Of a stretch of DNA of 64,000 nt, positions 3,244 to 57,365 are shown piece by piece. The notes under the pieces are model-generated. The model was not told the DNA's origin. It searched no databases and was given only the letters and a program-made list of their open reading frames with translations. Source of the stretch: Cladophialophora immunda (lineage: Eukaryota > Ascomycota > Eurotiomycetes > Chaetothyriales > Herpotrichiellaceae); contig NW_015622548.1 of NCBI RefSeq assembly GCF_000835495.1, positions 372,001 through 436,000 on the forward strand, in the 5' to 3' direction. Every line of letters begins with the position of its first letter. Positions within the stretch are counted from its first letter, which is position 1. A program made the translations under genes and the position numbers.

Positions 3244-4082
3244 ATGTCGCATGAAATGTCAACACAACATGCAACCCGAGTAGGGGCCAGACGTAAGTGA
3301 ACCTCGCCCAGCTTGGCTGGCTCTTGCTATAGGCCGATGTTCAGAGTCTTATTGACTGATTGATTCGGTATCGGGTTGTAGCATTCAATCACAGTCAATC
3401 CCAAGCTGCCGAAGAAGAGTACGACCGATTACGGAATCTGGCGCGCCAGGAGGGCTCCAAACGCTCCAATTGTTTCCAGCGATCCCAAGACGCGTATGCC
3501 AACGGCGATGGCGCGGCTGCGCATGCACTCTCGCAGGAGGGCAAGGAACACGGGGCCAAAATGGAGATGTACAACAAACAAGCTGCCGACTTCATCTTTC
3601 GCGAAAACAACGCTGAGGGGCGAGTCGCCGCCGATACGATCGACCTGCACGGTCTGTATGTTGAAGAGGCAGAAGAGATCTTAGAACAGAGGATCCGATA
3701 TGCTCAGAATCATGGTCAAACACATCTCCACGTCGTGGTCGGGAGAGGCAATCATTCTCCCGACCATATCCAGAAACTGAAACCTCGAGTCGAACAAACC
3801 TGTCGGGACCTCGGCTTGCAATACCACACCGAGTCGAATGAAGGCAGAATTTACATCAAGCTCGACGGCAGCCCTGTGGACATGCAACATGTGAGCAACT
3901 GGCAAGGCTACCAAACATATCCAGATCATCAGCAACAACCCTGGCATCCTCAACACGCTCAGCATCAACAACCACAACATTACCCCGCTCAAGGAGGGGG
4001 GCAATATGGCGGAGAGGAGAAGCTTGCCCAAGGACTTCTGTCCCGACTCATCAACAAACTCTTGCGCATGTTGTGTGGCTGA
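3244..4082 (+). CDS. DUF1771-Smr domain protein
   Basis: Exons 3244-3292 and 3382-4082 give 249 aa. The start ATG lies in a short first exon; the 89-nt intron has GTAAGT and a TTGACTGA branch region. Residues about 26-90 form a DUF1771 helical region (AEEEYDRLRNLARQEG...). Residues about 100-178 form an Smr domain with the DLHG motif (104-107) and the VVVGRGNHS loop (134-142). Smr domains of this type are found in nucleases and RNA-binding proteins; fungal homologues with DUF1771 are cytosolic and poorly characterised. The C-terminal tail from about residue 190 is rich in Gln and His and looks disordered. Assignment to the family is firm; the cellular role is not. Confidence 0.9.
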
Positions 4083-5584: not shown

Positions 5585-6686
5585 CTAGTATGCGTCCTCG
5601 TACGTGCCAGCGGCTGCTTCAGACCTCTTTGTTGGGATGGCCAGAACGGGATCTCGTGCATTCAACTCGGCATTTCTCTTTGGCTGCTTGTAGCCTATGG
5701 CATGTGAGCATGTCTTTCGCAAGTCACCATTTCTGCGTACCTGATTGTCCGCTGCAGCAGTTGCCCTGTGGGTCTGGCTCCGGCTCTGGCTCCGGCTCTG
5801 GCTCCGGTGAGGCCTCCCTGATCACCATATCGACGGCGGGCTCGGCAGCCATGTCAGGAACTGTTGTCGGTTCTGGCTCAGGGTCTCGGATCATGAGTTC
5901 ACCGTCTACGTCGCGTTTTGGTTGGTAGTAGTCTGGTTTTCGTCAGCGTCGTGGGCGCAAAGAACAGCACGGAGAGCGCTGACTGGCTTGGGTACTGCAA
6001 CAATTTCCGTCTGTCTCTTCGTCACCATCTGCTGCCTCACCTTCTGGGGCTGGCGCTGGCATTGGTTCTGGCATTGGTTCTGGTTCGGGATCCCTGGCTC
6101 CAGGCACGACTCCCAGGTCGCGTTTCGGCTGGTCATAGTCTGGTTGTCGTCAGCACCGTGGATGAGGAGGATAACACGCAGTATACCGACCGGTTTGGCT
6201 GCTGCAGCAGTTCCCATCCGTTTCTTCACCATCTGGGCTCGGCTCGGGCGCTGGCTCAGGTTCAGGTTCGGGCTCAGGCTCAGGGGCCCTTGCCATCAAC
6301 TCGTCCTCATTGTCACGCTTCGGATACTCTGGATTTGCGATCAGCGAGTGCTCGCCGTCGGCAAATGAGACTGACGGTTTTGGCTACTGCAGCAATTTCC
6401 ATCGGTCTCTTCGTCGCCTGGACTTGGTTCTGGGGCGGGAACGGGCTCTGGAGCCGGCTCCGGAGCAGGTGCTCTGACTAGAATTGCATGTCGAATAGCG
6501 GCCATAAGGTCGCGTTTGGGTTGGTTATACCCTAACACCAATCAGCTGGTTTGAAGGCACTTTGGAAGATGTCTTACCACTCTGGCCGCTGCAGCAATTT
6601 CCGCGCTCATCGAGTTCCAAAGGAAAGCTGTGTCCTGTCTGAACGACGATGGCGGCCACTGCCACAAAAACAGGGAGAAACTTCAT
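5585..6686 (-). CDS. Kexin-processed RiPP precursor with five Cys-Cys/Tyr core repeats
   Basis: Exons on the minus strand: 6686-6578, 6531-6376, 6328-6191, 6139-5984, 5932-5741 and 5694-5585. They give 286 aa. Residues 1-20 are a signal peptide. Five cores follow: GNCCSGQSGYNQPKR (29-43), GNCCSSQNQYPKR (81-93), GNCCSSQTDYDQPKR (127-141), GNCCSTQANYYQPKR (179-193) and GNCCSGQSGYKQPKR (243-257). Every core ends in KR, a Kex2 site. Spacers begin with Asp or Asn, carry one Arg, then Pro-Glu/Ala-Pro runs and an acidic stretch. A further KR lies at 273-274. Each of the five introns (46-51 nt) cuts codon 9 of a core in phase 1. Secreted repeat precursors next to UstYa genes are the signature of dikaritin-type fungal RiPPs (ustiloxin, phomopsin and asperipin are known members). 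This core is one I do not recognise. Product structure and activity are unknown. Confidence 0.9.
5695..5740 (-). other. Intron 5 of the RiPP precursor (inside core 5)
   Basis: GTACGC...CATAG, 46 nt, phase 1. Splicing restores Gly251 and joins the CCSGQS half to the YKQPKR half of core 5. Confidence 0.85.
5933..5983 (-). other. Intron 4 of the RiPP precursor (inside core 4)
   Basis: GTCAGC...ACCAG, 51 nt, phase 1. Its 3' end (GCTGACGAAAACCAG) is nearly the same as that of intron 3, so exon and intron look duplicated together. Confidence 0.85.
6140..6190 (-). other. Intron 3 of the RiPP precursor (inside core 3)
   Basis: GTCGGT...ACCAG, 51 nt, phase 1, same length as intron 4 and ending GCTGACGACAACCAG. 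Confidence 0.85.
6329..6375 (-). other. Intron 2 of the RiPP precursor (inside core 2)
   Basis: GTCAGT...TCCAG, 47 nt, phase 1. Core 2 is two residues shorter than the others just after this intron. Confidence 0.85.
6532..6577 (-). other. Intron 1 of the RiPP precursor (inside core 1)
   Basis: GTAAGA...TTAG, 46 nt, phase 1. Splicing joins the half core that follows the signal peptide to YNQPKR. Confidence 0.85.
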
Positions 6687-8124: not shown

Positions 8125-9336
8125 ATGGATTCTCGCCCATTCGAAGATTTCGAGTCTGCTCCTACATGGAGATTACTGAGGAAATCAGAGTGCACAGAGC
8201 AAGCACCCGCGCCATGGTCGCCAAAGAAGGAGCCACGAACCGCCAAAGTTATGCTGGTGGGCTTCGCCCTTGTTTTGAGCCTTTTGGCAGCCTTCGTCGC
8301 CGGGTATCATTCAAGGCGCCTCAAGGACGATTGCATCAGGCTTCAGTCATCTTGGTGTGAGTTCTGCCTACTGTTATTGTTCTCTCCCAACCACTCGCTA
8401 ACCTCGAAGCTGTTGTGTCCTCCAGCGCCAGGTTTGGACGCCGTGCGCGAGTTCAAGACCGTACAATTCAACGGCTCACTTGGGTATCCTTCGCCTTGGA
8501 CGGCGGAACCTTCTGATGAGGTAGATGATCTGTGGGATCACTTTGTCTATCGTAAGCCCCGACTCCAATCCTTGAGACAAGTTCTTGACCACTGTTCAAA
8601 ACCGCTCACTGGTAGATAGGGGCTCCAATGAGTATTTCTGAGGAAGAGTTTGCGCGTCTCGATGTCGAGTCGAAGGCTTTGGTCCGTTTCCCACCCGAAC
8701 TGGGAGGCGGAATCTGGGCAGACTTGGAGATGGACCATCAGTTGCACTGTCTGGTACGTTGTTACCCGTGAATATCCTGTTATGCGTTGCCGAATGCTCA
8801 AGGCAATAATTGTCAGGATCTTCTCCGAAAGCATACGCACCTGAAATACTACGAGTCCAAAGACATTTCTTTCGTCAATCAATCAAATATAATCCGCGCA
8901 CACCTCGGTAAGCCCATGTTCTTCGCTTTGGTTCAAAAACATGAAATGTCTTGTCACATCTCGAGCAGCCAACATTAACCGCCACACTTGAACAGACCAC
9001 TGTATCAACATTCTCCGTCAGAACATCCTCTGCCACGCCGACACAACCCTCCTGACCTACAACTGGATCAAGGGCTACGACTCGCCGTACCCCAACTTCA
9101 ACAACTGGCACGTTTGTCGGGACTGGGAGGCCATCGACCACTGGGCTGACTCTGTGGCACTTCCGAAGGACAAGATGGTGGAGTGGGGCATGAAGAAGTG
9201 GGACAAGAATGCAGAAGAGTTGGACCCGCCTGAGAGTATGCTCGAGCAGACACGGAGGAATCGTGTCGATGAATGTGTCAGGCTGGGTGGGAGGAGAGAG
9301 GAATGTGAGGAGAGGATTGGCACGGGTGAGCTCTAG
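8125..9336 (+). CDS. UstYa-family (DUF3328) membrane protein, copy A
   Basis: Exons 8125-8356, 8426-8551, 8620-8753, 8817-8907 and 8996-9336 give 307 aa with phases that close perfectly. A single membrane helix lies at about 41-61. The family's paired motifs are intact: HQLHC at 158-162 and HLDHC at 192-196, the latter followed by INILRQNILCHADTTLL. The block after it (NWHVCRDWEAIDHWA) also matches the family. UstYa proteins are proposed metal-dependent oxidases that install ether or other cross-links in the Tyr-containing cores of dikaritin peptides in the secretory pathway. Its position beside the repeat precursor makes that role here the natural inference, with the core Tyr or Cys as possible sites. 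The reaction itself is not visible. Confidence 0.9.
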
Positions 9337-9835: not shown

Positions 9836-10785
9836 ATGGCTGATCTCGAGAGGCGGACCGTCACTTTCACCTCGACTCTGCTGCTGGTCTTCCTGTTCCT
9901 GTCCGGGCTCTTCTGGTACGGCAATGGTCCAGCGCCCACCACGACAGTGAATATACCAACCCAACAACAACACACCAGCGACCGCGGGCGGCACACCGCA
10001 CAGGATCTCCTCTGTGGCCACGACCACGTCGAGCAGCCGCCGGGGTCGACGACGGTGCCCAGGACGTTTGGGAGGATGGCCAAGCTCGAGGATCTCAGCC
10101 CCGCGGGGGACAACGCGTGGGCCACCGAGACGGCCACCAGGGGAGGCGGGTTCCTGGCGGTGCGGTACAACGCGACCATGACGCAAGGCTACGGCCTCAG
10201 CATGTTCCACGCCCTTCATTGTCTGCAGATGATTCGCTTGGCCCTACAAGAGCAAAGAGCCGAAGGATGCGCAGGGGAAAGCGGAGGTGGAGACAAGGTG
10301 GGCCGAGCAGATCCTCATCATCTCCATGATAGTGGTGGTAGAGGGAGTGGAGGGGGCGCAGGCAACGTCGACTACGAACACGTCGCCCATTGCTTCAGCT
10401 ATGTTGCAGAGGTAAGCACCCACTTTTATTTCTGCTCCCTTTGCGATCATCGGGGAAAGACGCATGCCGACAAACAGTTGTGGTGTACGTAGTCGGGTCC
10501 TCTTTCAAGGTTGACGAAAGAGGAAATATGCTGTATGCTGATCTATGAGTTTACTTCTAGTCCCTCCTCTGCGCCGCCGACGGGACGATCGAGCCCCCTA
10601 CGGAGGAATTCAACGAGCGTGGCCACCTTGTCAGCTCCAATGTCGACGGCGCCGGCGTCGTCCACCAGTGCAAGGACGCGAGCCTCCTCTGGAAGGTGAC
10701 GCAGGATTCCGAGCGCAGACCCGTGGAGCGATGGGAGTATAGAGCCGGCGACACGGTCCAATCGGTATTTGGCCAGGCGCTGTGA
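9836..10785 (+). CDS. UstYa-family (DUF3328) membrane protein, copy B
   Basis: Exons 9836-10411 and 10561-10785 give 266 aa. The start sits in a good context (CAACCATGGC). The membrane helix is near the N-terminus, about 11-28. Motif 1 is HALHC (125-129); motif 2 is HVAHC (182-186), continuing after the intron as SLLCAADGTIEPP, which is the family signature. The C-terminal VHQCKD block is present. A Gly-rich, low-complexity insert of about 30 residues (about 146-176) separates the motifs and is unusual. With copy A it could form a pair of cross-linking enzymes, as UstYa and UstYb are proposed to do in ustiloxin biosynthesis. That pairing is inference. Confidence 0.87.
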
Positions 10786-11116
10786 AACCTGTGACCTACT
10801 ACCCCCTTTGGTGCTCTCTTTGGTTTGGTGGGGGGGGGGGGGGGGGGGGGGAGGGTTCTGTAGGATTTGGGAGGAATCGAGCCACATCATGGTGTGCGGG
10901 CGATCTTGTAGGGGTGATCATCGCTAAAGGATGAATGCAGTGAATGTCTCCAGGTACAAAAGTGCACAAAGACGTTTGACGGGAGTTTGTTGATCATCTC
11001 GGCATGGGTATCAACGTACGTAGGTTGTGCTTGGAGGAATAAATTCAGTGCCGGGTGACGATGTCTTTTTTTCTCACAATGCAGGGGCCAACAAACGCGG
11101 AAAATCCTCACACAAC
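10786..11116. other. Intergenic, contains the G tract
   Basis: Short spacer between two cluster genes. Nothing else noted apart from the poly-G run. Confidence 0.6.
10830..10851. repeat. Poly-G tract, 22 G
   Basis: An uninterrupted run of 22 G on the plus strand, 45 nt after the stop codon of copy B. It is probably in the 3' UTR, could form G-quadruplex RNA, and is prone to sequencing length error. Confidence 0.95.
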
Positions 11117-11888
11117 ATGCTCCTCGTCAACGAAAGCAAGTACTCCCGCCTCAGCGGCTCCGAGTCGGACGAACTTCCAGCGGAGGGCGCACGTCTTCTT
11201 CAGCCGAACAAGAAGTTCACCTTGCGGGATGTGGTGGCCGTTGGCATGCTGGCAGCATTCATTTCCAGCGCGCTCGCGGTCAGTGCGGTGTTGGCCACGC
11301 ACAGTGTCTCGCAACCACCCGACCTGAACAAGACAGCTCCACAGGTCCTTGATTGTGGTCACAGTGTTGCTGAAGCCCGAAAAAAAGGCTGCACATTTGA
11401 CCCACTCACAGTTGCGTGGCTTCCTGCACAATGCCCGCGAGACGGTGCGGACGAATTCGTCGATTCTGCAGATGCATCCTGGCGTTATTGGCATGACCGT
11501 ACGTTTCCCATAATCTCCCTCCTTGCTCGCGGAGAGCATGCACCTGTTTTCCCAGAGACAAATGCGGCAAACGACAGGGCTGACATGGGGCATCAACACC
11601 CCCCAAAAAGAAGCAGGACAGATGGAGATCACCGGAGGATATGAAAACTTGTCCCAGATCGGCGGGGACGGGGTGTACTGGACAACCACGGCTGAGCATT
11701 GGACGCACCGTGTCTTCATGTTGTGGAGGGTGCACGCGGTCCTTGCACGCGGGGGCAGGATCGATTGGATGACGGCGACCCAGACTCACAGCCATCACTG
11801 TCTGATGATGTTGTTGAATGCCACCAAGTTGGCTCCGCGGCGGAATGAGATCCACACGTACGGCTATGTCAGGTTCGGCTCGTGTTGA
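11117..11888 (+). CDS. Divergent UstYa-like membrane protein with Cys block, copy C (first motif degenerate)
   Basis: Exons 11117-11498 and 11578-11888 give 230 aa. A membrane helix lies at about 38-60. A cysteine block at 80-106 reads C-G-(x)6-A-(x)4-C-x-FD-(x)5-AWLPAQC. The C-terminal half has two His-rich sites in the places of the UstYa motifs: HWTHR (168-172), where the expected Cys is Arg, and HSHHC (198-202), which is complete. I recognise the Cys-block family as widespread, uncharacterised fungal membrane proteins; relating it to UstYa rests on the paired HxxHC pattern and the gene neighbourhood. The lost Cys suggests a non-catalytic or partner role. The acceptor at 11577 was chosen because it alone keeps the frame; a slightly different splice is possible. 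An upstream in-frame start is possible but lacks support. Confidence 0.75.
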
Positions 11889-12932: not shown

Positions 12933-13772
12933 ATGCTGGAGGCAGGGGAGGCAGAGAGCTACCGCGACAGGGCTGCCGGCGAGAAGCGTGGTCGAAAGAG
13001 ACCAACCGTCTCCTTTTCTGGAATCACGCCACATGGGGCTGGGAGAGGCAGCAATGTCTTCCGCTTCATCTTCAACCTCGTCATCTACACAATGGCCTTC
13101 GTGGGGGTTGTGCTCGCCATGAACCAAGTCATCACGCAGTCAAGGCCGTCCAGCCGTGCCACTGTCCGCCCTCTGGTCGAGAAGACCACCCCAAAGACAA
13201 ACGGCCTGGCACTGTTGGAGAATGTCGGGGCAGGAAACTCGACGGGCCGCCACCACAAGTACTGCTACTGCGGCTACACCATGGATGAAATGCGCGAGAA
13301 CAACTGCACGTTCGACACTTTGGCCATGGCCTGGCTTCCACCGTACTGCCGCGACGAGGAATTGACGGCCGAGTTTGACCGATCTGGGCCTGGGCCTAAT
13401 GGCAGCTGGACATACTGTAAGTAACTCCCTCTGGAGAGAAACACAAAAAGACGGAGCGTTGGAGATTTGCAACTCACAATACTTCGGGTTGGAGCTGACA
13501 CCAAAGCAGGGCTGGACTACAACCACACCATCCCCATCACCATCGAGCAAGTAGGTCTCATGGGCTTCCAAGTCGATCACGGCAATGTGTACATGGCGTG
13601 GGAGTGGCACGTCACGCACTGCCTCTTCTACTGGAAGAAGATCCATCGCCAACGATACACGGGAGTGATGATCGAGCCCCGGTACGACAAGGAGAGCCAC
13701 GTGATGCATTGCTTGCACGCGGTCCTGCATCCTCGGTGGACGACGTACTCTGGCGTGGTGTTGAATTCGTGA
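12933..13772 (+). CDS. Divergent UstYa-like membrane protein with Cys block, copy D
   Basis: Exons 12933-13416 and 13510-13772 give 248 aa. The membrane helix is at about 43-65. The Cys block starts at CYCG (111-114) and runs through C125-x-FD-(x)5-AWLPPYC139, closely matching copy C. The SWTYW sequence at the splice junction matches SWRYW in copy C. Both paired motifs are complete: HVTHC (195-199) and HVMHC (225-229). Copies C and D are therefore tandem paralogues within the RiPP cluster, with D the intact member. Probable location is the secretory membrane system with the His/Cys domain in the lumen. Function is inferred from neighbours only. Confidence 0.82.
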
Positions 13773-14598
13773 GATGGTCCGTCCAGAAGAGTAGATACTC
13801 CTGTTCATCTCGGCGTAATATCAGCAGTCCAGAGGGTTTCGTGTGGATTCGACGTCCCTCAAGGCAATACATAGCTAGGATCCAACCACAGGATGGGCAG
13901 CAGCGCGTTGAGTGATCCGAGTAATAGTGAGCAAGGAATGCATGTTTAAAGATGCACTGTATACCACAAGAGCTCACGGCGGTCTTGACGCTGTTTTACG
14001 GCGTGAGTCGTACAACCGTTGGAATGCTGCCTGGGTAGCTAAGGTCGATATGCGTATACTCACTCTCTGAAATGGTCCCGAGCCCGGCGCCAATGATGTG
14101 CTCGGACTTTGGAGTGTTTTAGATGTTTGGAGAGTTTGCAGTGTTTGTCGACGAGAGAACAACCCCCTCCTGTGCCGAGCCTGCGTCTCCGCTTCACCTC
14201 CGCGCCTCCATCTCCATGATCGCAACTCCATTCGCCACCGTCTTGTTCGAGAAGATCAATATCTGCAACCCATAAATGTTTTCCACTGGCAACCTTCAAC
14301 GGAAAGCTGTTCGTGGGCCCAACAAGTCATCGCTGTCCGCCTCGGGCGCAGCCTCAAGTGGAGAATTCGTCCTGATCCACAAACACCTCAAGCTCTTGAC
14401 AAGCCCATAATCTCCCGCCAGCATTGCTATCGTCAACCTCGCACAGCATCTACCAGAGGAATAGGGATCAGAGCCAGGCATGACAACAACCTAGTTTATT
14501 CTTAGCATCCGTCCGGGCGGCTGGGGGCTGCTCCTGGCTCAGAAAGCACGGTCCATGGATATTGCGTTTCGCGCGCCGGTTTCCATAAAATCTCCAGC
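13773..14598. other. Intergenic
   Basis: 3' flank of copy D and 5' flank of the NCS1 permease. No gene seen. Confidence 0.6.
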
Positions 14599-16708
14599 AT
14601 GCGCTCCCCTTCTCCCCAAAATGCCGTCGTCGAGCTCGACGACTTTGCGACTTCGTCTTCCGAGCGCATTTCGCGCTGGGAGGCCGCCGAACCGCTCCTG
14701 TCCCAGTCGAACAGTCCTCTCGAGTCAAGGCCCAAGAGCAAAACCGTACCCGGATTCGAGAAATCCAGAGCTGCTCGCCTGCTCTCGAGGCTGCAAACGG
14801 AATCGGAGCCTGGCCTCACAAATTCTCAGTTGATGCTTACCAACCATGACCTGAAGCCGGTCGAGCCACAACGACGCCAGTGGACGGCTTGGAGCTTTGT
14901 CGGTATGGAATTTCGCAGGCAGTTATGAGTATTCTCGCTGACACGCGCTTCCCAGCCTTCTGGATCGCTGACTCGTTCAACATCAACACCTGGATGATTG
15001 CTTCAACCATGCTCACTTCCGGCCTTGCGTGGTGGCATGCATTGATTTGTATTCTGATTGGGTATTCAGCCTCGGCGATGCTGGTCTGCTCGACTGCGCG
15101 AATAGGAGCCACGTACCATATCTCCTTCCCCGTTGTTTCTCGTGCATCCTTCGGCATCTGGGGATCACTCTGGCCGGTCTTCAACCGAGCCGCCATGGCC
15201 TGTGTCTGGTACGGTGTGCAAGCTTGGATTGGTGGCCAGTGCATCACATTAATGATTCGATCGATCTGGCCATCCTTCTACACTCTGCACAATGGCATCC
15301 CTGATTCAGGCACCAACACGAGGGACTTTGTGGGATTCTTCATTTTCTGGGTCGCATCTCTTCCTGCCATCTGGTTGCCCGTCCACAAGATTCGCTACCT
15401 CTTCATGGTCAAGTCTTACATCGTGCCGGTAGCTGGACTTTCCCTCTTTGGCTGGGCGGTCAGCCGTGCACACGGCATGGGCCCGATAGTGAGAGAGCCG
15501 CCGACTGCCTCGGGTTCTGCACTTGCATGGGGATGGGTGATTGGTATCATGAGTTCTATTGCCAACTTTGCAACTCTGATTGTCAATAACCCCGACTTCT
15601 CCCGTTTCGCCAGAAAACCGCGAGATGCTCTCTGGACACAGCTCTTCACCATCCCTATCGGGTTCGTGGTGACTTCTTTTGTGGGTATTGTCGTGTCCTC
15701 GTCGTCAAAGGTCATCTACGGTACAGCTATTTGGAATCCCTTGGAACTTCTCTCTCAGTTCCTCCTGGACGATGCGACATCGGCGGAGAGATTTGGCGTC
15801 TTTGTCATTGCGTTCGCGTTTGCGCTTGCCCAGCTGGGAACGAATATTGCAGCGAACAGCGTTTCAGCAGGTACGGATATGGCAGCCTTACTGCCTAGAT
15901 ACCTCAACATCCGCCGAGGAGGCTACATCTGCGCGATCATCGGCCTCTGCATGTGGTGAGCCTTCACCTAACCCGCGCACCCCTGTTGAAAAAACTCTCT
16001 TCCCCGAACCCTGCCCTTGAGTTTGACAGATCCTTTAGATGCTAACAGCACACCAGCCCCTGGAATTTGTTGAAGACCTCGAACAATTTCACCACATATC
16101 TATCGGCATACAGCGTCTTCCTGTCTTCGATTGCGGGCGTCATCTTCTGCGACTACTATTTCGTGCGCAAGGGATATTACTCGGTCAGAGATCTCTACTC
16201 GGCTCGGATAGGATCACCATATTACTATCATTTCGGCATATCATGGCGCGCATATGCCTCGTATATATGTGGCGTTCTCATCAACGTTGTTGGTTTCGCC
16301 GGCGCGGTTGGGGCCAAAGTACGTTCATCCCTCGTCCACGATGGCCTCGCTTGTTAGATGCCATAACCCACATCCAAAACAAAAGAAGAAAACGAACTAA
16401 TCTATATTTTGGTCTCCGGAAAGGTACCCATCGAAGCGAACTACATCTACAGAGTCAACTTCTTTGCCGGGTTTCTGGTCGCTCTCGTCGTGTACTATTT
16501 GCTGTGTTGGATCAAGCCCGTCCCCGCGACGAGCTCGGTATGGTGCGAAAAGGGCGACGGAGCAGGTGACCAGTTCAGCCTGGCCAACTCGCCAGACGAC
16601 GGATTTGATGAAAGCGCTGTTGAGATGACGAGCACGGACGGCGGGGCAAGTAGGGAGAAGATCGACAGGTATCGGGACAGGCTCAGACGCGATTCGAACC
16701 GCGGATGA
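14599..16708 (+). CDS. NCS1-family nucleobase/allantoin/thiamine-type permease
   Basis: Exons 14599-14902, 14956-15955, 16057-16318 and 16424-16708 give 616 aa, normal for fungal Fur-type NCS1 carriers. The hallmark [11 protein letters not shown] lies in the first membrane segment, with [17 protein letters not shown] following and about 12 hydrophobic segments overall. The hydrophilic N-terminus (about 100 residues) and C-terminus are cytosolic. Members carry uracil, allantoin, uridine or thiamine-type substrates with H+ across the plasma membrane; the substrate cannot be read here. It is collinear with the four cluster genes, 826 bp after copy D. Membership in the cluster is possible but not required. 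Confidence 0.92.
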
Positions 16709-17299: not shown

Positions 17300-19682
17300 T
17301 CAATCATCCACCCCCTTGGCGCGTTCTTTGGCCGAGAGCATCTCCCAGCCCGTGGCAAACTTGCCCCGGCCCTTCTTGCGGCGGTTGCCCATCTCCTGGG
17401 TCTCTTCGATGTCGCGCACCGCGGCGAACAGGTCGTAGACGATCTTGTCGCCGACGGCGCTGTCGCCCTTGTACGCCGGGTGGCGGCGTGTGAACTCGCG
17501 GATCCACTTGGCGGCCGTCCAGAGCGTGCCGTTGGCCCGCTTGCGGATCAGGTCCAGGTACACGGCTAGGTGGCAGCGCGTGTCGACGTCGATGTTGACG
17601 CTGTCCAGGTACGACTCGACCAGCGGGATCAGCCCGGGGAATCCGTCGCACGCGCCGCCGCCGCCGTTGATGACCTCGTTGATCGTCATCAGTGTGTACT
17701 CCTCGTCGACGGGGCCGAATGACGACTCGATGGTCTCTGCTGACGCCGACGCTGGCGCGTGGCCTGACTGGTTCGTGGTCTCTTGTTGATGTGGTGGGGG
17801 TGGTGTGGACTCCCCGCTCGACGGCGGCTCGCTGATCCCGTTCAACACCGGCGACTGTTTCGGACTCTTCTTCGGAAACGGATCCTTTCTGAACCAGAAT
17901 TTCTCCTTCATGACTGCGTCCCGGAGGTGCGCCGTCTCCATGTTCTCGGTCGTGCGCGGGATCGGGATGTACAGGTTGAGGTCGAAGCTCAAAATGGCCC
18001 GCGTGACGAGCACGATGAAAATGGCAAACGCGGCGTTCTCAAAGTCGGTGATTTGGATCTCCATGCTCCGGAACTCGACGCGCCAGCCGATATCCGCGTC
18101 CGGAGGCGGCGGCTTGAACCGCATGTGCTGCCAGTTCGTGCTCTGGATGTTTTCGAAGTGGTTCGAGCCCTCCGGGTCGAGGGCCTTCAGGTCTTCGGAG
18201 AAAATGACGATAGGGTCGCGGATGAAGAGGTGCGCAAAATGCGTGGCCAGAAGGTTGTCCATGCCTCCGTTGAGTAGCTTCTGTTTGAGTTCTTCGTTGA
18301 CGACCAGGTCAGGGTCCATGTATTCAGGCCGTAGGCGGGGATCTTGCGCGATGTATGTGCTATTGCTGGCATATCGGGATTTGGGTATTCGCCACCGATC
18401 GTTCTTCAGGGGCACCTCGCCCAGTTCTTCTGCGGTGCGGTCGTCGACCGCTCGAGAGATTTGGTTCCATCGAACATCCGTGTCGACCAGAAAACCTTTG
18501 TATATCGGCGTGGCAGCGGTCAGCGCCAACATGATTGGGCCCAGTGGAGAGAGCTGGTCGTAGAGGGTTCGGCCTTCGCGGATATTCTTGGCTTGAAACG
18601 TAATCTGCAAGCAGCAGCTGCCCATGCCAAAAGCCATGGCATCCATGTAGACACAATCCGGCTTGACAGCGCCGTTGCGAACGTCGTCGTCTTCGGGCCA
18701 TTTATGCAGGTCGTAATTGACCGTTGGATCGTGAAAAGGAGACGGGGTGTTTTTATCCTTGAAGACGGGGACGTTGATTTCCACTTTCCTCCCCCTCCGC
18801 GACCGGATGTTGGCAGCCAATGTCGGAAACCGAATGTGGGGGTTGGCAATCTCATCCGGCACAAACTGTGATCGCAAGGCTGGGCCCGAGGGAGGGTAGT
18901 CGGGCTGGATAGAGTCGGGCAGTCCCAGGCGGGGGAACGTGGTTAATGTGATCGGGAACTGATCAGGTTCCATGTGGTTTGTGGCGATCTCGCGCCGAAG
19001 CCTCATGTCGGGCTCGACGTCGAGTAAATCTTTGAAATCGATACCCCATGGCTTCCCTGGGGTAGCTTCGAGCATGAAGCGACCGAATTCAGGATGGAAC
19101 GTCGGAAGGGCACCGCTTCGACTGGGATCAGGAGTCAGTAGATGCAGGCTAACGGTGGACAAGCAGGGACTGTAAACTACTCACACAACACCATCTTGCA
19201 AATCAGGGACGACGGCATCCTTCTTCGACAGCGCCTCATCTCTGGCCAAAGACTTTAACACATCGGCCTGGCATAGCGATAGCCGAACCTTTTGATGTTC
19301 TTCATCGATTGCGACAACGAGGTACTCGACCTGGTGTTGGATGAAGGGGACTGTTTAGTAATACGGACGGACATCCGGCCGAAGGGGGGAAAAATCATAC
19401 CTCGTCACCCCAAAGGAGGGCATCACGCTCTTTACCCTTGGCCTTGCGCCATATTGCGAGCAATTGCTTGGACGGGTATCAGCAAGTAGAAGTAGGAACT
19501 GTGGTACATTAGGGGCACTTTCTGCCTCCCCTTACCTCGATACCCCATTCCCGAACCTGGTTCGCTGCCTTTTTGGCATCTGGCCAATCCAAGGCCGTCC
19601 CTAACGCTCTGCATCCCGTGAATAAAGTGCCCAGGGGAGAAGGGGTCGGAAAAAGGGTCTTTGGCACCTACAAAAGACCCAT
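17300..19682 (-). CDS. gcs1: Glutamate-cysteine ligase catalytic subunit
   Basis: Exons on the minus strand: 19682-19672, 19608-19536, 19466-19401, 19330-19185 and 19121-17300, giving 705 aa, the usual fungal length. It makes gamma-glutamylcysteine from Glu, Cys and ATP, the first and rate-limiting step of glutathione synthesis in the cytosol. The N-terminus, MGLLALGTALDW, is assembled across an 11-nt first exon; LLWGDEVEYLV, FHPEFGRFMLEATPG and FPRLG are family blocks, and FQAKNIREGRTLYDQL...PIYKGFL continues the catalytic domain. A Ser/Pro/Thr-rich insert lies near the C-terminus, as in other fungi. All exon phases close. Family assignment is certain; only the tiny first exon is hand-inferred. 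Confidence 0.95.
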
Positions 19683-43300: not shown

Positions 43301-43796
43301 AATATGCGCGACAGCGCCCAGTAGCTTCGAAAAGTTTGCTCCCTTTAGCGACTTTGTGAGGCGCAACGGCTGCAACCAGGAGAAACGATGTGGTGGCCGA
43401 AGCCGCCGACACCTCCGAGCTTAAATATCGGCCTCGCTTCACCTTCCCTTTCCTTGCATGAAAGTAGTTCCGCTGCCAAGGAGCCATGGAGCCTACCACA
43501 GCACGGAACCAGCACAGCACAGCATTAGCACCGCGATTCATCTTCCCTTCACTGTCAATCAGCTGATGCCCGCACTTCGGGCACAATCCTCACTTTGTCT
43601 TTTGGGCGTGCTGCTCTGGCCCTAGCAATAGTATATGCTTGCTTCTTCCCTCTGATCTGATCGAGTCTGGCGAGCCAGGGCGTCTCCGCAAGGGATGCGA
43701 AGATCTGTCTAGCGGCTCCTCCCCCAGACTCCCTTTAGTGAATTCGGCGCTTTTCTGCGAGGCCCGGCGCCATCCCTCCTCAACCGCTCTCTTGTC
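40343..43796. other. Long gene-poor region with CCTAGG motifs
   Basis: About 3.5 kb, the longest gap in the window. Contains GTACCTAGGTAC at about 41283 and ACCTACCTAGCCACCTAG at about 41732. All frames are short and without features. Confidence 0.6.
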
Positions 43797-46113
43797 ATGG
43801 ATCCGACCCGGGGCCTGGAAAGTGACGAGACGCGGCCCAAGGTTGAAGCGTTGACTCAAGAAGAAATCAATGAACGTCTGCGCCGCAAGCGTAAGGCGCG
43901 TGGACAAAAGGCTTGCCATCCTTGCCGGCAGAGGAAAGTCGGCTGCAATTACCAAAAACCCTGCCAAAAATGCATCGACCGCAACCATCCCGAACTCTGC
44001 GTCTATGAGCCTGTGTCGAAACGCGCAAACATCGACACCTCGGCCACCACCCATCAGGTTCCAGCCCCCGCTTCGACAGAAGGTGCCCCGGTGGGATGGA
44101 GCAGGATCACCGAGAGACTGCAGACCATCGAACAGTCCATTCAAGAGTTGCGAACTGAGCTGAAAGATTTGGCAGGCCGCGACGGGTCTCCTTCGACATT
44201 GGTCGGCCGGCCCAGGCCTGACAGGGCGGGACGGGACTCGAGCAGCGACGGGGTGGACCAGGACAGCTTCGCCATCCACACGAGCAACGAGGTTACCGGC
44301 GAGACCGTCCACCTAGGCGGCAACTCGGTGCCTGCCATGGTCTTCTCTCTGAAGAGTGATCCCAACGAATACGATGTCCAGGATCTACTCGGCAAGAGCA
44401 TCTTACCTCTGTTTGGCCTGGACAACGAGAGTGCCACTTACCCGTTCGTCGACCTCTGGGGCTTACCTCACGGATCATATGCTCGGCTGCAGGCATTGTG
44501 CAGACTGTTACCGACCGACGCCGACTGCCTCCAATACTTTGCACAATACCGGGATACCGCTCATGTTCTTTTCCCTGGCGTCGTCGACATCAAACAGTTT
44601 GAGGGGGAACTCACTCATTTCCTCATCAACAAGGCTGCCGTGACCCGGGATGCTCCTTACGAGGCTCTGTCCAATGACAACATATATGGCAAAACTCTGC
44701 ACTGGGTCGGGTTGCTGTTCGCCATTCTTGCGTCTGGCTACCAATGTTCCTCGCTGCCGCGGAAAGAACGGCAACTGACGAGCCAAGTATACGGTTAGGA
44801 AAGATCCACCGCGGTGAAATGTGCACGCTTACAGTAGTACAGTGTGCTGTGCTTATGAATGCCTCCGCATCATAAACTATTTGTCCAACTCCAAGTTGCT
44901 CGATATCCAGACGTTGTTGGTGCTGGGGAATGTCATTTCCAACAACATGAACTCCGGCATTGCCTGGTGCCTGCTTGGTATGTTGCACCGGTACCCTTCT
45001 ACTTGGGCGGATTTCGGTGGACTGAAAGTGGTGGCGAGAGACGTTTCCATGCTGACGGACACATTAGGATTGACCATCCGGATTGGCCAGAGCCTAGGTC
45101 TTCATCAGAAGGCCTTCCGGACTAGCTCCGACGCCGAGAGGTCGGTGCGGGAGGAACTCTGGTACGTCAAGGAACCTCTGCGTCGGGTTGCGTTTGAGTT
45201 TTTTGTTGTTGACGCTGCGTCCAGGTGGCGTATAGTGTGGCAGGACAGTCTCATCTCGATCACGTTCGATCGAGCATCGGCGACTCCCACGATCTCGCAT
45301 CACAAAACAATCGAGTCTGCCGAGAATGTGTGGTTGTCGTATACCGACTGCATGAAGATCCTGTGCGAGACTGGCCTCGACATTGTGCGAGAGCGGAGCA
45401 AACATAGCGATCCCCGCCATGAACTCGTGCGCATCAAGAGACATCAGGACGAACTGGCCAGGATGATGAGCCACTCGCTCCAACATCTCAAAGACGCGAC
45501 AGCGTGCCAGTCAATGAGGGATCAGCTCGAGCACTGGAACCTCTATCTCCACCGCTCCTATATCATGTGTGAGCTGTACCGGTCGGCATTGAAACGCAGG
45601 GGGGCTTCGTCGGAGCTGGCCCCCTTTCGGGCCATATGCTTGGAGAACATGGCCAACACGGTGGATGCCTTTCTGGGACTGTCCAACGTGACTCGGTTTG
45701 CCACTCAGTCTTGGGCTGCGGTGCATCGGTCTCTGAGCTCGGCGCTGTTGCTTGGGATTCTGAAACAACCTCAAACCGACCTGCGTGTGCGGTCACTGCT
45801 TGACAAATTGATTATGCTCATGTCGAGCATCAACTCGTCGCTGGATCCCACCGAAATATCTGCACCCATCTCGAGAGCTGTCAGGGCCCTTGCACGGCTC
45901 AATGCTTTCCACGGCTCGGACGCGGGGGCCGAGCACGGGGCGGGTGGCCATGTCGTTCCTGGCTGGGATCGAAGCACTAGCTCGGACGTTCACATGTACT
46001 CGGGGCACCCTTCGAATGAAGCATCTGGGGATGACGCGGGTCGGTCTGAGGATTCGCCTTATGAGCTGATGGAGAAGATTCTTTGGGGATCACAGGGGAT
46101 ATCTCCAGTCTGA
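43797..46113 (+). CDS. Zn(II)2Cys6 / fungal_trans transcription factor, copy 1
   Basis: Exons 43797-44793, 44843-44977, 45068-45161 and 45225-46113 give 704 aa. The zinc cluster lies at 40-68 as C-x2-C-x6-C-x5-C-x2-C-x8-C. A Ser/Pro linker and a heptad region (ITERLQTIEQSIQELRTELKDL, about 100-123) follow. The fungal_trans regulatory domain covers about 200-480 (LLPLFGLDN, YPFVDLWGL, then GLTIRIGQSLGLHQ). It should be a nuclear DNA-binding regulator, target unknown. A gene of the same design lies at 52581-54699 on the other strand with identical exon 2 (135 nt) and exon 3 (94 nt) lengths and intron phases, so the two are paralogues. The bHLH gene downstream is 0.9 kb away on the same strand. 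Confidence 0.92.
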
Positions 46114-52580: not shown

Positions 52581-54699
52581 TCAGTTCATATGATCATGAG
52601 ACTCTGCCGCTCCTGTCGGCATCCGAACAATCGAAAAGCTTGGAGGGTCCGAACTCCACCGCGTCGCCGCCATTTCGTGCAGTCTGGTAATGGATTTGGA
52701 GAAAGGAGTAGGCAAGTGCGCCTCAGCGCAGTGTGTGCAGGGGCTTTTCATGGCCGAGATGAAATTGTGGACCAGGTACTGGACCGGTCTCGTCCTGCTC
52801 AGATCGTCCATGGTGCACAACATCAAGGCGGAGCTCAGTGCTCTCTGCACGAATATCGAAGACTGTTTGACTGCCGGGGCAATCACCTGGAGGTGGAGGA
52901 AGCCAGTAATCGTGCCGCTCAGGCATCGCACATAGGCATCCAAGTCGTCCGGACTGGAGCTCCGGTCTCGAAGAAGTGACCGATAGAGCTCAGCATTGAC
53001 GTAAGACCGGTGTAGATATAAGCTCCAGTATTCCAGCCGAGCTTTGGTCGTGTGGCAAAGTGTCGCATCCTTGAGGTACGGTGCTGCCTCTTGGGTCATT
53101 TCGTTCAGGGCTCCCAGAAACCGCGATATATCTTCAAGGGTAAATTGTCCGGCTCCTCTAGTAGAACGCTCCCGGACGATTTCCAGACCGATCTCGCAGA
53201 TTGTCTTCATGCAATCGTTGTAGGAGAGTTCGTTAGTTCCGGGAGTGATGATCGTTCTTTGGACTTGGAGTGTCGAAGGTCTGTCGAAGGCTAAGGCAAG
53301 CGAACTTTCTTGCCATACGATGCGCCACCTGTTTTCCAAGTCAACATACACTCGATTGAACACGTCGGAACTCGACGCACCATATTTCTTTTCGGAGCCT
53401 TTGCAGGCTGTCTGGTGTGGAAAGGGGCTGGTCAAGGTGTAATCCAAGGCTTTGTGCCAGCCGGATAGTCAACCCTTTTGCCATTGTCAGCATTTTCCTC
53501 TCATGATAGTGTACCATCCCTAGCATCTTACCCTCGAAGCACCATGCAACACCCGCATCGTGGCTGTTGGCCATGACATCGGCAATGACCAACATGTTTT
53601 GAACGTCGAATAGAGTTGGGTACCCGAGGTAGTTGGTAGATCGCAAGCATTCGTAGGCGCAGCAGACTTTGACAAATCAGTCAGTATACCCAAAAATGGA
53701 GGGGGGGTAAAAAGGGTCAAGTGGTCAAGCACCGTATACCCGCGATTTCCAGCGGCGCCCTTCACATGGAAGAGTGGAATATTGGCATCCTGAAGCCAAA
53801 CATGCAAAAAGCAGCCCGAGCCAGTGAAGGTCTCTGCCGCCGAGCTCCGCATGCGGGTTCGTGTCCGTCTCTGAGCGTGGTGTTTTTTGAGGGTTTGATC
53901 GTCGCGCGAGGAATTCGGTGAGGTCGTTCTGAAATTGGTCGAGGTCGGGAATGGCTGGGAAAACTGCATGAGCAGTCTCGCTGTAACAGGTAAAGAGGCT
54001 GCGGCACTCGACGTCGCCCGGCAGTAATTCGCACAGGCTCTGAAATCTCGAGGCTGGTTCGTTGTGTAGTCCCCACAGGGCAGAAAAGGGGTAAGTCACC
54101 GACTGATTCTCCAGGGCGAAGATGGATAGGATCTCTTGGTTCGAGATGTCTTGTGCCCATCCCGCGGGGTCGGGGCGCGCTGTTGCCACGAGCGAAGGCT
54201 GCACTGGGTTCTGTCCCAGGTGTACAGGTTGACCAGTGCCCCGCGTGCTCGGCCCTGGTGCCGGAGCTGTCCACCACGTCGCATCTCTGCTGGGACTCTG
54301 TCGCGACAGCTGCGCGGCCGTCGATGACTCTGCTCTCGGCGTCCATGCGCCCAGGGCCCGGTCAATGTCCTCCTTCACTCTCCACAGCGTCTGCTCGAGC
54401 AAGGCGGTTTTCTGTGTCAGCACCGCTTCGTCTGAAGCTGCGGGGGTGGTGCTGGCGGCACTCGAAGACGCTGTGGTCTCGAGAACGGACTTTGCGCGCG
54501 GGGCGTCATAAATGCAAATCTCGGGATAGCCTCGATCGATGCAGGTCTGACAAGGCTTCACGTAGTTGCACTTGACCTTGCGTTGATGGCAGGGATAGCA
54601 CGCTCTGGGGGTTCTGTTGTCCCGCCGCTGTCGAAGGAATTCGTCGATGTCTTCTCGCGATAGGTCTGGTTTGCGCGGTGTGTCCTGAAAACGTTCCAT
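52581..54699 (-). CDS. Zn(II)2Cys6 / fungal_trans transcription factor, copy 2
   Basis: Exons on the minus strand: 54699-53733, 53666-53532, 53474-53381 and 53328-52581, giving 647 aa. The zinc cluster is at 34-62 with the same spacing as copy 1 (C-x2-C-x6-C-x5-C-x2-C-x8-C) and near-identical sequence (KVKCNYVKPCQTCIDRG). The fungal_trans domain includes YPFSALWGL, VCCAYECLRSTNYL, GLTIRLAQSLGLH and WWRIVWQES. Each intron falls where copy 1 has one, in the same phase, and exons 2 and 3 are the same lengths (135 and 94 nt). A nuclear regulator of unknown targets; the mirror position relative to bHLH copy 2 suggests the two gene pairs arose together. Confidence 0.92.
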
Positions 54700-57365
54700 G
54701 CTCCGTCATGGCCTCGATAGGACCGTCTTCACATCCGAAATTCAGCATTTCCCCCCTGGCCGTGCCTGGAGTACCCTCAGCCTCTTATGAAATGGACAAT
54801 CTGGTATTGATGGTGGCAAGTGACTAGGCTGGAAGGGGCAATGGGCCGGCTAACATCTCGTGTGGTGGGTACGGGACATGCCGCCTTTCCAGAATCAATG
54901 GCACGATATTCTCATTCCACCCCCCAGAGCCCTAAGCGTCGCGTCGAGGACTTCGCACCATTCTCGAATGCCGTGGAAAGCAGTCGCGCCATTTTATCGA
55001 AGCCCCTAGAATGGTCACAAGACTCGAGTGATGCCCAGCCCACTGTGTCCTGTGCTTTTGGGGCGGGGCAGGGGTCTCGGATTCTTATGGATGCAGATGC
55101 CGACTACTTAGCAAAGAACTGTCTTGCGAGCACCGCCACTCAAGACAAGCACGGGGAATCCTTTCTTTATCCTGCGCCTCACCAGGTAATTTGTGCCTCG
55201 TTATATCAGAATCTAAAACTTTTTACTCGGAAGCAAGAGGCCCCGACGGGATGTTGGCAGGGGAAGAAACGACCGAATATCACTCAATACGGCCCGAGAC
55301 GCTTCCTGAAACCTTCAAAGCGGTGGTAGAAATGCGAAATCCTCGAGAATACTGTTACTGCGATGCACAGTCGGTCGACAGGTGTTGGCCAGCGACATGG
55401 ACATCTGAAAGCAGAAACAAATCCAGGATTGGATTCCTTTTTCCTCGTACTTGTAGGGGTTCGTGGATCGTTGTCCCACCAAACTGGACCCGCGGCAGGC
55501 GTTTCCTTCCAAATCCAACTTACCGGGAGCAGCGCCCAGCGACCAGAAATTGCCCAGAGAAAATCTGTCCTCTTCTGGCCTTGCATAGGGATATAATATG
55601 TATTTGTGGACACAGTGGCCATTGTTTTCGTTATCGAGTTCGCCGTTGACTGTGCCTGTGCCTGCACCTGGGGTTGCGGCAGCTCAGCCTAATCCCTAGC
55701 CACAGACAAGAAAGTGGAGAGGCAATGAACACCGAGGCCATTCTCGTAACGTCGTGTAAAGACCTGACAAGTCCAGGCTCCAGAACCCTTTTTTTCCTTC
55801 TCGGATCCTGCAGCTGGTGGGGCGCGCGATCAACGGTCGAACAGAATAGACAGGGAGCCCGTCGATCTCAACTGGGCGGATGAACGGAAGAGGTGCTCCA
55901 TCTGCTGTGCTATGCCCGAACCGGTGGGAGGAAAATTCTTCCCGAGCAGGTAACACCCAGGACTAACTCGTATTTGCGAGTCCCCATCCACCAGCAAAAC
56001 GGCACCAACAAATGTATTCGTAGGGATCCGGACTTGTTCCGCGATGCACTCACTGCCGGCTTTTCTCCCTGCCCCCCCTCCCCCCAAAGCGACCAAACCA
56101 TGGTCGAGACGCCACATTTTGTGCTTTCCTCGAATAAGCAGTCCCCGAAGTACGAGCCAGTCACCGGTCCCGCACGCAGACGGGTAAGGTTGGAGGTCTT
56201 TGTCCTGCGAAATGTTTCACCCGATGCTCGGCCGTGTTTACGCCTCCTTGCGTGGTGCGGGCTCGGGAATCTCGAAGTTTATGCAAACCCGAAGACAAAA
56301 GCCAAGATCAGATGCAGAGAGATCATGCGTTCAAGTGGGATCCCATTGACAATTGGCCTCAACACCCCCCAGCCCGTGCCTTTTCTTTTGGTAACTTGGT
56401 GTCTTGGGTATATGACTGGGGATCCGTCGAGGGGTCTTAACTCGGCAATGCGGGGCTCTCCAGAGGCAGAATCTGTTACTTGACCACCGCGACAAAACCC
56501 CCTATTGCACATCGTCCCTCTCGTCCGTATGGGATATTCGAGCATGTCATCTGATCGCATGCAACACGTGAGTCGATTTTGCCTGGCGACAATGCTACGT
56601 GAAGGGAATCCGGAACGCAGCCTCGCAGGGTCCTGGGGGGTGGCCCAAAATGTCGCATAGAAGGATTACATAATAAGATCTAGATTTAGGCTCGAGCGAC
56701 TATTTCCCATTGGCTGGCGAACCCTTACTCCGGGGTACTAGCGAGCAGTTTAGCGCAAAAGTCCATTCTGACGGGGGATTCGGGAGTATCACGGACTCCT
56801 CCGTACTCCGTACTCCGTCCCAGACCTGTCTATTGTAATATTAACTTGTACGGAGTACTCGGTATCCCTTTTTCGTCCAATCAACCACTCCCCCTGCCTA
56901 AGTTTCCCCGAGAGCATAACAAACGCTGATCGCCTTAGAGCCATTATTGCTGTGCAGTACCTACCTCGAGATGTTAGAAAGATATGACACTTTGCGTGCC
57001 TATGGTAGCACCCGCATTACTAAAAGTTGTCAGACCACCCGACTTCTAAGCTGCCCAGTCACCCAATATCACCTGATACTTCATGTTTAAACACTCAAGC
57101 TGGAGATGGCTTTTTTTTTTTTTTTTTTTTTACAAACAGACCTTCTTATCCACTGTTGTTCATCGGATAATCCCTCGAAAGCCATCAAGGTGCCTTGGGG
57201 ACCAATCCCGTATTTTCTGTGCGTCTGAGACATTTTATGCATACCTGGAGGGAAGGCCAAGGAGAAGTTGCTACGCTACCTTATCCCAAGATATCGCACC
57301 GCCACTGAGCTTAGCCTCACAAAAAAAAGCACCACTAGAACCTTTCATCTTGACCACATCAAACA
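54700..57365. other. Long gene-poor region
   Basis: About 2.7 kb. TACGGAGTAC/ACTCCGTA motifs cluster at 56800-56860, and a T21 run is at 57111-57131. No credible gene. Confidence 0.6.
57111..57131. repeat. Poly-T tract, 21 T
   Basis: Uninterrupted T run about 235 nt downstream of the ETF alpha stop codon. Confidence 0.95.

Follow-up and report, generated by a model that had tools for sequence, protein, structure and literature searches.

The question raised by this locus is what kind of peptide would be released from a repeat gene found in the 64,000-nucleotide stretch of the Cladophialophora immunda genome analysed here (contig NW_015622548.1, positions 372,001 to 436,000 of the forward strand; hereafter the window). 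The first-pass annotation had read positions 5585-6686 as the precursor of a ribosomally synthesized and post-translationally modified peptide (RiPP), with five cores each split by an intron. Our analysis indicated that the gene is almost certainly genuine, with selection acting on its cores, and that it very probably encodes a secreted precursor processed by kexin. The reading that we favour, and consider probable, is that of a dikaritin-like RiPP precursor with several cores, whose peptides would be modified by the UstYa-type enzymes encoded next door. Its paired-cysteine core and predicted intron-split repeats would be its new features.

The repeat gene and its five cores

The coordinates first assigned to the gene were correct, and the strand, which had been left unstated, was found to be minus, with the start codon ATG at 6686 and the stop codon at 5587-5585 (Table 1). 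In the DNA, GNCCSxQx is encoded five times, and the Y...PKR half comes 46-51 bases after each copy. The two halves are joined by removal of five predicted introns, which share GT...AG ends and phase 1 and occupy the identical position of the repeat (5/5); this yielded a single open frame of 286 residues across six exons. Ten residues (G, N, C, C, S, Q, Y, P, K and R) were identical in all five cores, with KR as the end of each. The consensus GNCCSxQxxYxQPKR initially proposed describes four of the five, and fails for core 2, which is two residues shorter. All 10 cysteines of the precursor lie inside the five CC pairs, and none was present elsewhere. With five cores and six KR sites, and with 48-64 residues separating the KR of each core from that of the following one, the protein has the repeat build of a KEX2-processed repeat protein (KEP), defined as carrying at least three tandem repeats of at least 8 residues, bounded by dibasic sites and none longer than 100 residues (PMC7329392; this and the other papers are cited from the available portions of their text), although this definition was applied without the repeat-scoring script of that survey.

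The occurrence of the cores is not readily attributed to chance. GNCCSxQ was searched as a degenerate 21-base pattern derived from these same copies; it matched the 42.2-Mb genome five times, always within the precursor gene, and a reversed control had no match in the same 42.2 Mb. Furthermore, dinucleotide shuffling of the stretch, repeated 1000 times, did not produce any five-residue word with at least four different letters (the class of words counted) more than twice, as against five occurrences of GNCCS in the real sequence. Over ten repeat pairs, the mean proportion of synonymous differences (pS) was 0.79 against a nonsynonymous proportion (pN) of 0.16 for whole cores, and 0.86 against 0.017 for the ten signature columns; with few sites, a hand alignment of core 2 using a two-codon gap and one pair above 1, the single values are rough, while the contrast is large. 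The cores thus look to be maintained by selection at the protein level, with silent sites nearly saturated.

The predicted splicing bears directly on the reading frame. Retention of any of the five introns brings in a stop, located inside the intron for four of them and just past intron 1 through a frame shift, and every core, read unspliced, is terminated 5 to 17 residues past its eighth residue. The internal exons (156, 138, 156 and 192 bases) are all multiples of three with phase 1 at both ends, and the intron pattern as a whole is the one that tandem duplication of an exon together with its intron would be expected to leave. Because these exons are symmetric, all 16 exon-skip combinations keep an open frame, and their whole or chimeric cores retain GNCCSxQ...Y...PKR, although such isoforms are no evidence for actual skipping. 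A combinatorial library driven by splicing, in which front and back halves of the cores would be recombined within the precursor and Cys then linked to Tyr by UstYa enzymes, is in our estimation quite unlikely.

A further regularity was observed in the acidic spacers. All four main spacers contain 8 or 9 X-Pro/X-Ala dipeptides in register, starting right after a single Arg, and spacer 4 also holds a run of three dipeptides, again after an Arg. In alpha-pheromone precursors such runs are removed by STE13-type dipeptidyl aminopeptidases (PMC6339444), and the single Arg could possibly act here as a second processing signature besides KR. In core 1, the position of Arg directly before GNCC suggests G as the mature N-terminus; the peptides of cores 2 to 4 are predicted to retain an acidic segment that ends in EETD, and the trimmed end of core 5 would be QGNCC.

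Table 1. Positions of the precursor gene, its parts and the neighbouring genes in the window.
Feature	Position	Strand	Description
Repeat precursor gene	5585..6686	minus	six exons, 286 aa + stop; splicing predicted
Precursor exons	6686-6578, 6531-6376, 6328-6191, 6139-5984, 5932-5741, 5694-5585	minus	
Signal-peptide-like N-terminus, residues 1-20	6627..6686	minus	MKFLPVFVAVAAIVVQTGHS; hydrophobic, judged by eye
Core 1	6512..6602	minus	GNCCSGQSGYNQPKR; interrupted by intron 6577-6532
Core 2	6315..6400	minus	GNCCSSQNQYPKR; shorter; interrupted by intron 6375-6329
Core 3	6120..6215	minus	GNCCSSQTDYDQPKR; interrupted by intron 6190-6140
Core 4	5913..6008	minus	GNCCSTQANYYQPKR; interrupted by intron 5983-5933
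Core 5	5675..5765	minus	GNCCSGQSGYKQPKR; interrupted by intron 5740-5695
Gene A, UstYa family	8125..9336	plus	5 exons, 307 aa; HQLHC + HLDHC; PF11807 179.8 bits
Gene B, UstYa family	9836..10785	plus	2 exons, 266 aa; HALHC + HVAHC; PF11807 58.2 bits
Gene C, relative of gene D	11117..11888	plus	2 exons, 230 aa; second motif HSHHC intact, first HWTHR
Gene D, double-HxxHC protein	12933..13773	plus	2 exons, 248 aa; HVTHC + HVMHC
Cytosine/purine permease	14850-15956		looks like an ordinary gene beyond the cluster
Glutamate-cysteine ligase	17300-19177		looks like an ordinary gene beyond the cluster
DUF1771/Smr protein	3360-4079		opposite side; looks like an ordinary gene beyond the cluster

UstYa-type neighbours and proposed maturation

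The first-pass annotation had placed this kexin-type repeat precursor beside UstYa genes, and the neighbourhood bore this out: within 7.1 kb lie two genes above the PF11807 (UstYa) cut-off of 25 bits, A and B, both with two HxxHC motifs, and two relatives, C and D (Table 1). Genes C and D share 29% identity over 133 columns (E 6e-12), and no Pfam match was obtained for gene D or for the corrected model of gene C. Judged from their sequences, both would be relatives of UstYa, lying outside PF11807 and not members of the family. The gene D product is identical to a deposited C. immunda protein over 248/248 residues, its next relative being that of Fonsecaea erecta (83%). In the gene D family (20 found sequences including D), W194, H195, H198 and C199 of the first motif are invariant and H225, H228 and C229 of the second nearly so, and PF11807 weakly matched 5 of the 20 members (best E 4.4e-5). 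The frame of gene C is intact, with the Cys of its first HxxHC replaced (HWTHR), and its product may be inactive or otherwise employed. A run of 22 G at 10830-10851, between genes B and C, is possibly a weak spot in the assembly.

This arrangement was in good agreement with that of the dikaritins (ustiloxin, phomopsin and asperipin-2a), with which it shares a multi-core KR precursor, a Tyr in each core (five of five) and adjoining double-HxxHC UstYa genes, which number two in ustiloxin, five in phomopsin and one in asperipin-2a (PMC7329392). The UstYa/DUF3328 protein or proteins with two HxxHC motifs that are expected beside a dikaritin precursor (PMC12048977) are represented by genes A and B. 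The differences are the CC pair, the predicted intron in every core and the long X-Pro runs past a single Arg. The epichloecyclins of Epichloe, derived from GigA, likewise come from imperfect repeats with kexin sites and have an inferred Tyr-Ile cross-link, whereas no CC pair is mentioned for them in the available text of PMC9233826.

In the maturation that we propose, the precursor would be secreted, Kex2 would cut after KR and Kex1 would trim the products; a further cut would fall after the single Arg in each spacer, and a dipeptidyl aminopeptidase would then strip the X-Pro/X-Ala run. The UstYa-type proteins, whose genes lie 1.4 to 7.1 kb from the precursor gene, would close a ring oxidatively at the conserved Tyr, and a second link, either a disulfide or a thioether, would be made via the cysteine pair. 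With ring closure and a second link, products 2 or 4 Da below the linear cores would therefore be expected, and the end product would be a small dikaritin-like cyclic peptide. That a Cys is joined to the Tyr in a cross-link is offered tentatively and appears rather doubtful, with an ordinary disulfide as the simpler possibility; if true, such a ring would be of a type without example for UstYa enzymes in the literature searched. Should a UstYa-linked core carry a cysteine pair, the chemistry expected of UstYa proteins would widen, and exact masses can be sought: the linear cores, trimmed of KR, have calculated [M+H]+ values of 1314.484, 1200.441, 1417.500, 1448.557 and 1328.536, from which the proposed links would subtract 2.016 or 4.031.

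Counter-evidence and alternative readings

Several observations weigh against a precursor of the dikaritin kind. The UstYa-dependent cross-links described in the available text of PMC6514808 and PMC9233826 start from Tyr (in victorin, from Phe) and end on a carbon of another residue; Cys is not the partner. UstYa proteins have further activities, namely hydroxylation, chlorination and participation in transacylation, and turn up in gene clusters for polyketides and nonribosomal peptides (PMC12048977), so that their presence does not by itself imply a ring. Pfam scans of 27 distinct stretches or gene models of the window, which did not include a model of every gene, revealed no tyrosinase or methyltransferase and likewise no peptidase; tyrosinase and methyltransferase genes belonged to the 2015 definition of dikaritins, relaxed since, and both are missing from the four-gene cluster of asperipin-2a (PMC6514808). 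The profile of the gene D family matched a four-sequence UstYa profile weakly, over the motif region (probability 49%, E 1.7e-4), and the predicted structure of gene D, of moderate confidence (mean predicted local distance difference test score, pLDDT, 67.4), gave no Foldseek match in the PDB at E 0.001 and was not used as evidence.

To these are added points concerning the gene itself. Three of the five precursor introns have donors with C at +3 (GTCAGT, GTCGGT and GTCAGC), a feature seen in none of the seven introns modelled in four neighbouring genes. In addition, a protein search with the whole precursor, in which 7984 candidates sharing most words were scored, gave no significant homologue, the best being a weak Glu-Pro-rich match (E 0.071), and a search with residues 1-56 gave no candidate; both searches would miss a homologue of very different annotated length. 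The unusual donors and the lack of a significant protein match, together with the loss of one motif Cys in neighbouring gene C, would suit a non-working precursor, that is, a decaying or mis-spliced repeat gene whose cores are broken by splicing. The strong synonymous excess between the repeats argues against such decay, as do the single open frame over six exons and the open frames of 16/16 exon-skip combinations, and we hold this explanation to be highly improbable.

The X-Pro/X-Ala signature is, according to the available text of PMC6339444, absent from the precursors of toxic cyclic peptides and epichloecyclins and marks good hormone candidates, which also counts against a dikaritin-like product and raises the alternative of a linear secreted signal resembling an alpha pheromone. 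Kexin and a dipeptidyl aminopeptidase would in that case free peptides that are either unmodified or disulfide-bonded, and the neighbouring UstYa genes would have another role. Ascomycete alpha-pheromone precursors share with the present one KR sites, X-Ala/X-Pro runs and, in several groups, two Cys per peptide, and their signal peptide resembles the signal-like N-terminus judged by eye here (PMC6339444); the in-register runs after Arg are of the kind tied to them, and in a secreted CC peptide a disulfide could form by oxidation alone. In alpha-pheromone precursors, however, the run lies right after a dibasic site, whereas here the runs begin at a single Arg 9 to 32 residues past KR, and only one X-Ala pair adjoins a KR. 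The Cys residues of the pheromone example sequences are spaced and non-adjacent (PMC6339444), and pheromone-annotated precursors are, with three exceptions, without UstYa genes nearby (PMC7329392), whereas four UstYa-type genes adjoin the gene studied here. Furthermore, Glu-Pro spacers are also present in another precursor of this genome that lies near UstYa genes (KREPEPETGYIAVSGNKKR). Considering both sides, we regard a signalling peptide as unlikely.

The CC pair is the sole Cys arrangement of the precursor (10/10), and the window contains a glutamate-cysteine ligase gene (Table 1); both would fit a metal- or redox-active secreted peptide, in which the pair would act as a ligand for copper or zinc or as a redox-cycling vicinal dithiol, with the Tyr being incidental. 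The Tyr is, however, as invariant as the CC pair (5/5 cores), and the ligase of the window is the higher-scoring of two copies in the genome and is therefore probably the ordinary ligase, nearby by chance. This explanation appeared very unlikely to us.

Other precursors of the genome and annotation status

At least 22 Pfam UstYa matches were found genome-wide, grouped into ten regions including the window. Six of the nine other regions hold a kexin-repeat precursor, and three gave none by the present scans, which were not exhaustive (a 4-of-6 identity rule missed the window gene, and a looser scan was then used). Their repeat types are GYIAVSGNKKR, GGIPWKR, a 28-residue repeat ending in NLIAKR, TADWLEKR and DIYHATIKR, and the sixth precursor has PHHTEAQIAAKEAAAKKHQ-type repeats plus EFGSWVDKR units. 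One of the six carries di-histidine PHHTEAQ repeats. Like the precursor of the window, these six have repeats between dibasic sites and are located around UstYa genes; unlike it, they have their repeats in one frame with no intron between or within them (6/6), contain no CC and possess cores unrelated by eye. Intron-split repeats were accordingly seen in only one of the seven precursors, that of the window. Relatives of gene D were located in two of the six precursor-holding regions (C1:5.86 Mb and C1:8.16 Mb) and at three further locations. A minus-strand INQPKR reading at another UstYa region proved to be antisense to a plus-strand precursor and was dropped.

The precursor gene appears to be unannotated, because the two protein searches lacked a significant match though the database searched contains the gene D protein of C. 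immunda at 100% identity, and gene callers seem to have failed on it. This agrees with the original remark that the gene is easy to miss with its repeats split by introns. A second DNA match, on contig C2, was rejected as a Glu-Pro-coding simple repeat with nearby stops, and is no second copy of the gene.

In a survey of 1461 fungal assemblies that took annotated proteins as input, 7878 kexin-repeat precursors were reported, of which 2560 had no relative at all and 22% lay close to UstYa genes, with Tyr-holding repeats at 65.6% in precursors with UstYa genes nearby and 38.2% in those without (PMC7329392). Such precursors are numerous and diverse, and therefore a new core alone is expected and not startling; it is the CC pair and the split cores that carry the interest. 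Neither 'cysteine' nor 'intron' occurs in the main text of that survey, figures and sequence tables aside, and no CC core or intron-per-repeat precursor is found in the available text of PMC6339444, PMC7099791, PMC12048977, PMC9769878, PMC6514808, PMC9233826 and PMC6374014. Likewise, a search of the open-access literature for GNCCS, NCCSG, NCCSS or NCCST, with supplementary tables outside its reach, matched 94 papers, and among the 20 listed no title pointed to a fungal peptide precursor; one of these 20, on Candida albicans biofilms, does contain such letters. With tiny introns splitting the cores and gene calls failing, such precursors would drop out of surveys of annotated proteins (PMC7329392), and fungal peptide natural products of split-core build may be undercounted.

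As for the remainder of the window, the glutamate-cysteine ligase was weakly considered as a cluster gene and set aside as probably the ordinary copy; the other ligase of the genome, at C3:3077017-3078176, has a lower score and is spread over two frames. Two further segments, 43713-46113 and 52581-54705, contain similar sets of long frames on opposite strands, which look like Zn2Cys6 regulators and are perhaps paralogues; the Pfam scan covered 43713-44795 among these frames, and the resemblance was otherwise judged from the translations.
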